Assembly: GCF_024972755.1 (NCBI RefSeq)
Contig: NZ_CP087724.1
Location: 868,001-932,000 of the forward strand
Length of the DNA stretch: 64,000 nucleotides
Reading direction: 5' to 3'
Source: Halanaeroarchaeum sp. HSR-CO
GTDB lineage: Archaea; Halobacteriota; Halobacteria; Halobacteriales; Halobacteriaceae
Both the position numbers and the translations under genes were made by a program. Below the pieces are notes generated by a model. It had not been told where the DNA came from, ran no database searches, and saw nothing but the letters and a program-made list of their open reading frames with translations. Shown piece by piece: positions 4,576-6,571 of the stretch (position 1 is its first letter; the number at the start of each line of letters is the position of its first letter).

Positions 4576-4723
4576 AGGTTCGTACTCGCTGTGAAAACAC
4601 GATGGCGTTCGGGATGTCCCGGTTACCGTCCCAGCCAGAGCGGCGCCTCGAGTGCCCTCGGGTCGGCCGGGTGATGGGGAAATGACGACGGCCCCGGTGT
4701 CGTTCCCGCCCGCCGAATCGAAA

Positions 4724-4732
4724 CGGATAAAC
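4724..4732 (+). promoter_or_regulatory. TATA element for tRNA-Ser
   Basis: CGGATAAAC lies about 30 bases before the 5' end of the mature tRNA-Ser, in an otherwise GC-rich stretch. The rest of the gap 4546-4758 (213 bases) holds only this element and the divergent pilus-operon promoter; I see no gene in it. Confidence 0.5.
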
Positions 4733-4758
4733 CCACCTTCGTGGTTAGTACGAGATGA

Positions 4759-4843
4759 GCCGAGGTAGCCTAGCCTGGCCAAGGCGGTTGCTTCGAGAGC
4801 AACTGTCCTCACGGACTCGAGAGTTCAAATCTCTCCCTCGGCG
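4759..4843 (+). tRNA. tRNA-Ser (anticodon CGA)
   Basis: The 85 bases fold as a class II tRNA. The acceptor stem pairs GCCGAGG (4759-4765) with CCTCGGC (4836-4842), followed by discriminator G. The anticodon stem GTTGC/GCAAC (4787-4791, 4799-4803) encloses the loop TTCGAGA with anticodon CGA, reading the serine codon UCG. A long variable arm (4804-4818) follows, then the T arm GAGAG-TTCAAAT-CTCTC (4819-4835). The long variable arm and G discriminator fit serine. CCA is not encoded. No intron is seen. A TTTT run follows at once, a plausible terminator. The 3' end is repeated three more times downstream. Confidence 0.96.
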
Positions 4844-4936
4844 TTTTCTGAGCGTCTTGCGAAGAAAACGGCGGAGTGATTCGAATCAGGGAGTGGAGCG
4901 GAGCGGAACGACCGTGGTTCAAATCTCTCCCTCGGC
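4823..4936 (+). repeat. Direct repeat copy A (114 bp), starting in the tRNA-Ser T arm
   Basis: This segment begins in the T arm of tRNA-Ser, runs through its 3' end, and ends with a second copy of the 19-base tRNA 3' sequence TTCAAATCTCTCCCTCGGC (4918-4936). It is identical to 5062-5175 except at one base (C at 4882 against T at 5121). Inside lies the palindrome GATTCGAATC (4878-4887). The structure resembles duplicated attachment sites left by integration at a tRNA 3' end. Confidence 0.9.
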
Positions 4937-5062
4937 GTTCTCGCGAACTCGACGACGAGCGTAGCGAGGCGTCCGTGAGCGAGGACGCCTGCATAGTTTG
5001 AACCCAGCGAGTCACAGCCCGCGCAGTGAGCGAGGCGAACGAGCAGGACTGTCTTGCGCTGG
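4918..5062 (+). repeat. 145-bp middle unit of the tRNA-Ser array, with two hairpins
   Basis: The unit is bounded on both sides by the tRNA 3'-end 19-mer (4918-4936 and 5063-5081). It contains a perfect inverted repeat AGGCGTCC-gtgagcga-GGACGCCT (4967-4990). It also holds most of a longer imperfect one, TTTGAACCCAGCG (4997-5009) against CGCTGGTTCAAA (5057-5068), which folds back onto the next copy of the tRNA T-loop sequence. No believable protein is encoded; the short minus-strand frames here are antisense tRNA sequence. Confidence 0.8.
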
Positions 5063-5175
5063 TTCAAATCTCTCCCTCGGCGTTTTCTGAGCGTCTTGCG
5101 AAGAAAACGGCGGAGTGATTTGAATCAGGGAGTGGAGCGGAGCGGAACGACCGTGGTTCAAATCTCTCCCTCGGC
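5062..5175 (+). repeat. Direct repeat copy B (114 bp)
   Basis: This is the second copy of the 4823-4936 segment, offset by exactly 239 bases with a single difference. It starts and ends with the tRNA-Ser 3' sequence (5063-5081 and 5157-5175). After the last copy the sequence becomes unique (CTTATGGAGG), so 5175/5176 is the right edge of the array. The remaining stretch 5176-5230 up to the stop of the next gene shows nothing I can interpret. Confidence 0.9.
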
Positions 5176-5230
5176 CTTATGGAGGTAGGCTGCATCGGTA
5201 AGTGACGCGAATATCCGCCGAAAACGAGTC

Positions 5231-6571
5231 TCAGCCCCCGACGAGGCCGAGTCGTCCCATCGCACCCATGACGCCGAAGCCGACGACCAGGACGATGGTG
5301 ATCCCGTAATACACCCGCTGCCAGGTGGTCGGCTGGAAGGGTTCGGGGAGGTGTTTGTCGACGATGTAGTAGTTCGCGATGTAGAAGAACACCTGGAGGA
5401 TGGCCATCAGGGCCGCCGAGAAGATGACCAGCGTCACCGGCAACTGTCCGATGACGAGGATCGGAACGATACTCGCGATACCCATCGCCAGGATGAACAG
5501 CCGTCGGTACCGGTCGGTGTCGACCTCACGGTCGAGGACCAGGTCCAGGACGTCCGCGTTGACGCGGGCCGCACCATCCATCACCGTGATCACGGTCGAG
5601 TAGAGGGCGGCGAAGGCGCCGACGATCAGGACGTAAAACGACCACGGACCGAAGCTATCCTGCAAGAGGTTTCCGATGGCGAGGGCCACGTTCTGGTCTT
5701 TCGGTGGCGTCGGATACAGGACCGAGGAGGCCAGGAAGATCATGCTAACGATCAACACGAAGCTGAACCCGAAGGCGATACGGAAATCGCGTTTCCCGAC
5801 GTCCATCCACGCGCGGATGTAGTCGTGGTACTGTTCGTCGTGCGGATCGCGGTTCTGCTCGCGGAGCGCGCGAGCGCCCTGTTCTTTCGCCAGACTCCAG
5901 CTTCCGATGGTGACGGTCGTACTCAGCCCGGTCGGCGCGTAGCCGGCGATGGCGGCGAACAGCCCCAGGAATCCGGGCGCCGTGACGTCCGGGACGGCAA
6001 AGGTCGTCTCCCTCACGACCGTGGCCGAGGGCGGCGCGACGAACAGGCCGAGGACGATCAACAGCCCGAGGGTGACGACGAATATCTTCATCAGGTTCTC
6101 GAGCCAGGAGTACCGGGAGGCGAGGGTCAGGGCCATCGCGAGGCCGATCAGTCCGACGTAGAGCTGGATCGGCGTCAATCCCGGGACGAGTGCGGCCGCG
6201 AACGTCGCGGAGGTGAATCCGACGGCCGCGAGGATGGTCGTCCAGCCGACGAGATAGATCAGGAGCGTCAACCACTGTCCCCAGTGGGCCGGGCCGGGGA
6301 GGTCGCCGTACCCCTCGACGGGGTTGCGGCCCATCCCGTAGTTGTACCGGATGCCCAGTTCCCACCCGCCGTACTTCGCCAGATACACCAGGCCGACGAT
6401 CCAGACAGCGAAGAGCCCGTACAATCCGCCGAGCGTCGGTGCCAGGACGATGTGGCTGCCGCCGATGCCCAGGAGTGCCCACATGAGCGATGGTCCCAGG
6501 TGCTCGCGGACGAACCCGGTCCAGCCCTCCGCCGGGTATTCGAGATCCGGTGTTGTCCCTGTCGATGACAT
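5231..6571 (-). CDS. Nramp-fold membrane transporter lacking the metal-binding motifs
   Basis: The 446 residues form about eleven hydrophobic helices with the general Nramp pattern: an N-terminal LGPSLMWALLGIGGSH helix, a long conserved loop after helix 3, and the AIAGYAPTGLS helix near the middle. True Nramp proteins carry DPGN in helix 1 and MPH in helix 6 to bind divalent metal. Here the equivalent positions read GIGG and APTG, so Mn2+ or Fe2+ transport is doubtful and the substrate is unknown. I start at the ATG at 6571; a GTG 15 bases upstream (6586) is possible. It stands alone in its orientation, beside the repeat array. Confidence 0.8.
   Translation of the reverse strand: MSSTGTTPDLEYPAEGWTGFVREHLGPSLMWALLGIGGSHIVLAPTLGGLYGLFAVWIVGLVYLAKYGGWELGIRYNYGMGRNPVEGYGDLPGPAHWGQWLTLLIYLVGWTTILAAVGFTSATFAAALVPGLTPIQLYVGLIGLAMALTLASRYSWLENLMKIFVVTLGLLIVLGLFVAPPSATVVRETTFAVPDVTAPGFLGLFAAIAGYAPTGLSTTVTIGSWSLAKEQGARALREQNRDPHDEQYHDYIRAWMDVGKRDFRIAFGFSFVLIVSMIFLASSVLYPTPPKDQNVALAIGNLLQDSFGPWSFYVLIVGAFAALYSTVITVMDGAARVNADVLDLVLDREVDTDRYRRLFILAMGIASIVPILVIGQLPVTLVIFSAALMAILQVFFYIANYYIVDKHLPEPFQPTTWQRVYYGITIVLVVGFGVMGAMGRLGLVGG

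Follow-up and report, generated by a model that had tools for sequence, protein, structure and literature searches.

Tyrosine integrases of archaea, for example those of the SNJ2 type, use tRNA genes as attachment sites (PMC8371274), and single partial duplications of tRNA genes are known at proviruses (PMC3119063, PMC7230728, PMC3623002). Palindromic repeats of the REP, BIME and REPIN kinds have been described together with RAYT (PMC2817692, PMC3116915, PMC3733652). Here, we analyse an array of repeated tRNA 3′ ends in a 64-kb stretch of the Halanaeroarchaeum sp. HSR-CO genome (hereafter the window, i.e. the whole stretch of 64,000 nucleotides, C1:868001-932000). A first-pass annotation had read this array as a stack of attachment sites remaining after repeated rounds of integration and loss, or as a tandem duplication formed between such sites. 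The comparisons presented below place it in a widespread class of haloarchaeal hairpin repeats that are stacked behind tRNA genes.

An array of tail copies behind tRNA-Ser(CGA)

The sole tRNA gene that ARAGORN finds in the 64-kb window is tRNA-Ser(CGA), at 4759-4843 on the plus strand. Its 19-nt 3′ part, TTCAAATCTCTCCCTCGGC, is present in four exact copies, at 4824, 4918, 5063 and 5157, as the first-pass annotation had stated; an exact-copy search recovered all of them, and allowing up to 3 mismatches revealed no other copy in the window, with 0.02 expected from shuffled sequences. The block 4823-4939 recurs at 5062-5178, at an offset of 239, with 98% identity over 117 nt. Sequence comparison bears out the earlier description of a 114-bp block repeated at +239 with one base change, the sole difference over the 114 bp from 4823 to 4936 being a C to T change that turns GATTCGAATC into GATTTGAATC. 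Tail copies (T) and spacers follow each other in the order T1-A-T2-B-T3-A-T4, with spacers of 75, 126 and 75 nt, and inverted tail copies (T′), overlooked in the first-pass annotation along with the genome-wide occurrence of such arrays, lie at 4878-4885, 4995-5002 and 5117-5124. The features of the array are as follows.

4759-4843, plus strand: tRNA-Ser(CGA) gene, anchor of the array (ARAGORN; Rfam tRNA, 54.8 bits)
4824-4842, plus strand: T1, the 3′ part of the tRNA itself, from the T-loop to the acceptor end (sequence; exact-copy search)
4843-4877, plus strand: H1 of unit A, trailer hairpin GTTTTCT...AGAAAAC that extends the tail (sequence)
4878-4885, minus strand: T′ of unit A, inverted T-loop copy GATTCGAA (sequence)
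4886-4917, plus strand: H2-alpha hairpin TCAGGGAG...GACCGTGG (model R1 match C1:872873-872930, E 2e-11; alignment A1)
4918-4936, plus strand: T2, exact tail copy (exact-copy search)
4937-4994, plus strand: H1 of unit B (sequence)
4995-5002, minus strand: T′ of unit B, inverted T-loop copy AGTTTGAA (sequence)
5003-5062, plus strand: H2-beta-like hairpin CCCAGCGAGTCACAGC...CTGTCTTGCGCTGG (sequence; resembles the beta class aligned in A2)
5063-5081, plus strand: T3, exact tail copy (exact-copy search)
5082-5116, plus strand: H1 of the second unit A, identical to 4843-4877
5117-5124, minus strand: T′ of the second unit A, GATTTGAA, which holds the sole base differing between the two blocks (sequence)
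5125-5156, plus strand: H2-alpha hairpin of the second unit A (model R1 match C1:873112-873169, E 7e-13)
5157-5175, plus strand: T4, exact tail copy and end of the array (exact-copy search)

Together with T1 and T′, H1 of unit A has a predicted folding energy of -24.1 kcal/mol. The H2-beta-like hairpin at 5003-5062 has matches elsewhere in its own genome, behind tRNA-Gly genes. None of the matches of this genome to Phage_integrase (PF00589) falls within C1:868001-932000, in agreement with the earlier observation that the window holds no integrase; between the tail copies, a search for an integrase or an element remnant returned no PF00589 match, and the spacers consist of conserved hairpins. 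The resemblance to an attachment site noted earlier stands, since the copies, like tRNA attachment sites, extend from the T-loop to the tRNA end.

Arrays stand behind about half of the tRNA genes

With the array as query, eleven further places were retrieved from its own genome, and the seven that we examined all lie just 3′ of other tRNA genes. A census of the 1.3 kb downstream of each tRNA gene found extra copies of the gene's own tail at 23 of 43 genes in Halanaeroarchaeum sp. HSR-CO, with 44 copies downstream versus 1 upstream. The result was repeated in G009, a genome from the same taxonomic family, where 22 of 42 genes have such copies, with 46 downstream versus 0 upstream. The tRNA-Gly(TCC) gene is followed by six further tail copies in near-identical 111-bp units. 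Own tails recur downstream with up to 3 mismatches at 21 of 43 genes, whereas foreign tails do so in the same stretches in 3 of 1380 tests; this comparison, together with the 0.02 copies expected in the window, excludes a chance origin of the tail copies. A tandem duplication between T copies, as proposed in the first-pass annotation, remains a natural source of the 239-bp repeat; a local one-off duplication is rejected as an account of the array class, which the census finds at about half of the tRNA genes.

Units combine two hairpins around an inverted tail copy

In the common plan, a unit opens with T, the tail from the T-loop to the acceptor end, and continues with the H1 hairpin, whose stem extends that tail, the inverted tail T′, the H2 hairpin and the next T. 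T′ was detected in 206 of 221 units versus 52 shuffled spacers, and its stem part fits the tRNA of its own locus better than other tRNAs (3.23 versus 2.07 of 6 positions, p=2e-23). When T′ was ranked against its own tail without gaps, the signal was weak (mean fractional rank 0.31), as T′ is a few bases short at the T-stem/acceptor junction; an arm-pairing test took the place of this ranking. T-H1-T′ and T′-H2-T are each predicted to fold into a long hairpin; as T′ is common to both, the two folds are mutually exclusive.

H2 falls into an alpha class (TCAGGGAG..GACCGTGG), a beta class (CCCTGNNNNGACGCAG..GACCGTCNNNNCTCCGG) and a gamma class (GACCGAGGTTCTGCG..CGCAGGTTCTCGGGCGT), which recur at unrelated tRNA loci and co-occur within one array. 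The alpha class displays 67 compensatory cells versus 20.7 in shuffled alignments, a value reached by 0 of 500 shuffles and with every slid version worse, and the beta class has 10 pairs with changes on both sides; note that the sequences are related, so that these counts are not independent. With RNA parameters, the tRNA-sense strand of T′-H2-T gives the better fold of the two strands in 174 of 195 units (alpha 84/84, gamma 9/9). T-H1-T′ has no such sense-strand advantage, and the asymmetry is thus not a mere effect of composition.

In the window at 4700-5300 and at five other array loci, the tRNA itself was the only credible match to Rfam 15, and a known structured RNA family was rejected on this ground. 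A second type of repeat was also seen behind tRNA genes, of the form (C)CACTTTTT..hairpin..CTCGCAAAAACTTGGGGAAAAA and variants (L018:1570-1660, L033:1790-1860, L235:1717, L254:1688 and 2012).

A Halobacteria-specific family tied to tRNA 3′ ends

Searched with the alpha pattern, named genomes gave at least 120 matching stretches; the 80 matches listed come from haloarchaea or from MAGs with that label, together with a single MAG under the label Euryarchaeota. Among the matches listed, 80 of 86 alpha sites in other haloarchaea could be assigned to an upstream tRNA gene on the same strand, nearly all within ~450 nt, and these 80 sites cover more than 20 isoacceptors, mostly with 0-2 mismatches to the tail of the tRNA concerned. 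Three of the remaining six lie at stretch edges, two follow an integrase gene (L158 and L163, see below), and one is unexplained, an alpha unit (L137:988-1041) on a 3.3-kb contig on which no tRNA was found.

R1, a covariance model of the alpha class, was applied to the own genome with a threshold of E<=1e-3 and gave 15 places, all tRNA-linked. Fourteen lie behind tRNA genes, and the fifteenth lies in a broken upstream duplicate of tRNA-Arg(CCG) (L025:1192-1290), whose 5′ part joins T′-H2 directly, the tail and H1 being deleted. R1 matches 180 of 194 Halobacteria genomes. Of 247 genomes drawn from the phylum, 38 have a match, all from the own order, and ~204 genomes from other classes of the phylum gave no match. 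The units had no match in collections of plasmids, phages and viral contigs, in which haloarchaeal elements may be few, and carriage on plasmids, phages or viruses was rejected accordingly. The repeat family belongs to the class Halobacteria alone and has tRNA 3′ ends as its anchor points.

Arrays differ by whole units

Orthologous tRNA-Ser(CGA) loci in relatives carry 0-3 extra copies, each fitting the tail variant of its own species. Between arrays with a unit in common, the differences comprise entire units, with the cut exactly at T (L055/L057, L067/L069 and L136/L148), and either gain or loss would produce them; the extra unit adjoins the tRNA in L057 and L069, and lies farther out in L148. 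The distal copy is the more mutated one in 30 arrays with at least 2 copies and the less mutated one in 6 (p=7e-5), and at the positions that distinguish T2 from T1, T′ matches T1 in 51 cases and T2 in 4, both biases being partly expected if T1 is a selected tRNA gene and distal copies drift. H1 bodies are common to different tRNA loci in 10 of 1253 pairs within a genome versus 1 of 1323 between genomes, a comparison of two genomes of different genera with few independent families, and the hairpin arms pair better with the local tail (20 versus 2). An apparent four-unit array behind tRNA-Leu(CAA) of Halorubrum lipolyticum (L168) contains N bases at two identical junctions; as it is probably an assembly artefact, it was left out of the analysis.

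Integrase-bearing elements displace arrays from the tRNA tail

The first-pass annotation linked the array to integrase-bearing elements. None is present at the window array; in three other haloarchaea, such an element occupies the tail, and the displaced array follows it. In Haloterrigena salina (L109), about 3.1 kb behind tRNA-Val(CAC), a 3-kb insert between that tRNA and its array carries integrase-like fragments, broken across frames, along with a P-loop ATPase-like gene, as read by eye. In Natrarchaeobius chitinivorans (L158:5635-6850), a 351-aa tyrosine integrase (Phage_int_SAM_1 over the cut-off; PF00589 with E 8.5e-6, just under the cut-off) directly precedes a partial tail, CCCATCGTGCCCG, followed by the displaced H1-T′-H2-T unit; no tRNA was found in this 8-kb stretch. 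The third case (L163:3792-5126, minus strand) is a 444-aa ORF, integrase-like by eye, that adjoins a tRNA-Trp-like partial tail, again followed by a displaced H1-T′-H2-T unit. T′-H2 was not found at the ends of the elements at these three loci, and the hairpin units are thus not remnants of those elements.

Discussion

We propose, as a reading whose chances we hold to be about even, that the arrays are the work of a miniature hairpin element, specific to the clade and anchored to tRNA genes, which adds units beside the tRNA and re-forms their arms from the local tail. Its observed basis is the anatomy of the units, their linkage to tRNA genes, the restriction to one class, the polarity, the whole-unit differences and the occurrence of common bodies with local arms; from these we infer insertion, a single-stranded form and an enzyme. 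The window array would be a stack of three such units. Units would insert at the T-loop boundary beside the tRNA, the inserting form being single-stranded, folded and of tRNA sense, either trailer RNA or ssDNA, and insertion would duplicate the tail, so that older copies shift outward and decay. On arrival of a body at a different tRNA locus, its arms could be rebuilt from the local tail by templated synthesis or by quasi-palindrome template switching. Later recombination between T copies may change the number of units, which would also account for the A-B-A order. With no recombinase near the arrays, and no unit found outside tRNA loci or on plasmids, phages or viral contigs, we infer mobility from comparison only. 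As a candidate enzyme we name a tyrosine recombinase of the host, for instance XerA, solely because that protein is chromosomally encoded and has been reported to bind stem-looped att sites (PMC8371274).

Arrays might also arise with no mobile unit, by ordinary replication and recombination at palindromes: template switching would carry T into T′ and then into the following T, T copies would change in number by unequal crossing over, and gene conversion would spread the bodies between loci. The near-identical 111-bp units at tRNA-Gly(TCC) and the 239-bp duplication in the window agree with this, and outward copying from a selected tRNA would yield both the polarity and the fitting of the arms. 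We nevertheless regard recombination alone as rather improbable, as distinct conserved H2 classes (alpha, beta and gamma) stand together in one array and recur at unrelated loci class-wide, and as it does not predict the absence outside Halobacteria. A functional trailer RNA seems to us unlikely: the tRNA transcript would enter the array, and T′ would pair with its own tail (T-H1-T′) or with the next copy (T′-H2-T) as a folding or processing switch, or H2 would bind a protein. Two strong, mutually exclusive hairpins with T′ in common, compensatory pairs, a fixed U.G pair, tandem G.A pairs and the better folding of the tRNA-sense strand in every alpha and gamma unit all suit such an RNA, which the alpha covariation would equally fit. 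However, units are found at only about half of the tRNA genes, one orthologous tRNA has 0 to 3 copies, the H2 classes are interchangeable, and T2 changes are matched in T′ in only 4 of 59 cases, with the proviso that wobble pairing would survive A-to-G and C-to-T changes.

Serial integration and loss of integrase-bearing elements, with the tail copies as stacked attachment sites, we now consider very hard to credit. The T-loop start of the copies and the elements at the tail side of the arrays in L109, L158 and L163 are in its favour, but in two genomes about half of the tRNA genes are followed by arrays of this kind that have no inserted element, an outcome that the first-pass annotation had itself named as telling against its model. 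Moreover, the spacers are conserved base-paired units, common to several tRNA loci and across the class, that were not found on plasmids, phages or viral contigs and are unlike the ends of real elements, which carry no H1, T′ or H2, and clean excision leaves no conserved 75-126 bp spacer. It is exceedingly improbable that Cas1 or a casposase enlarges the arrays in the manner of spacer acquisition, or that an IS200/IS605 (Y1) transposase spreads the units. Growth next to the tRNA, a duplicated target and a decayed last copy recall CRISPR arrays, and a folded strand with alternating palindromes recalls REP and IS605 ends; yet Cas1 is absent from the own genome (G000) and present in 48 of 116 class genomes, and Y1_Tnp is present in 81 of 116, versus alpha units in 180 of 194. 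Both were rejected as required enzymes; G050 and G027, with 15 and 8 alpha units, respectively, are listed without either.

The repeat family raises the question of how a short hairpin gains a direct and an inverted copy of whichever tRNA precedes it. Conserved, strictly tRNA-linked and present in 180 of 194 sampled genomes of Halobacteria, this family has apparently escaped notice; we found no tRNA-tail hairpin arrays among open PMC papers, and within Rfam and the open literature they are apparently undescribed. They bear on the attraction of integrating elements to tRNA ends, on the evolution of archaeal tRNA trailers and on the annotation of haloarchaeal intergenic DNA. More tentatively, and on the doubtful side, the family may be a class-wide, target-templated, protein-less mobile element (or tRNA-tail recording array) that copies the tRNA 3′ end in both orientations around small mobile hairpins and grows beside the tRNA, unlike REP sequences, attachment-site stacks, integron arrays or CRISPR arrays.

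Like REP, BIME and REPIN sequences, the units are short, extragenic, non-coding imperfect palindromes of alternating orientation, likely folded as a single strand; T and T′ alternate, and the long hairpins show covariation. They differ in that the arms follow the local tRNA and there is no family-wide fixed palindrome, though bodies fall into classes, in that all 15 own-genome matches (E<=1e-3) are tRNA-linked rather than dispersed, in their confinement to Halobacteria and, as regards RAYT, in the many carriers without a Y1 transposase, G050 and G027 among them. With the tRNA attachment sites of tyrosine integrases they have in common a directly repeated tRNA 3′ end with its boundary at the T-loop, and tails of the same kind host integrated elements in L109, L158 and L163, whereas the array units are geneless, 75-126 bp long, with inverted tail copies and conserved hairpins, and stand at about half of the tRNA genes, real element ends being devoid of them. 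Integron attC arrays likewise consist of units in tandem, flanked by imperfect inverted repeats with a single-stranded fold; here, no cassette genes or integron integrase were seen, and the core differs at each tRNA locus. CRISPR arrays and casposon target duplications resemble the tail arrays in their direct repeats with spacers, signs of growth from one end and a degenerate distal repeat, but here the repeat is a tRNA tail, the spacers are related hairpins and Cas1 is not needed. Within the literature searched, what is new is apparently the combination of strict tRNA linkage with locus-templated arms, direct as well as inverted.
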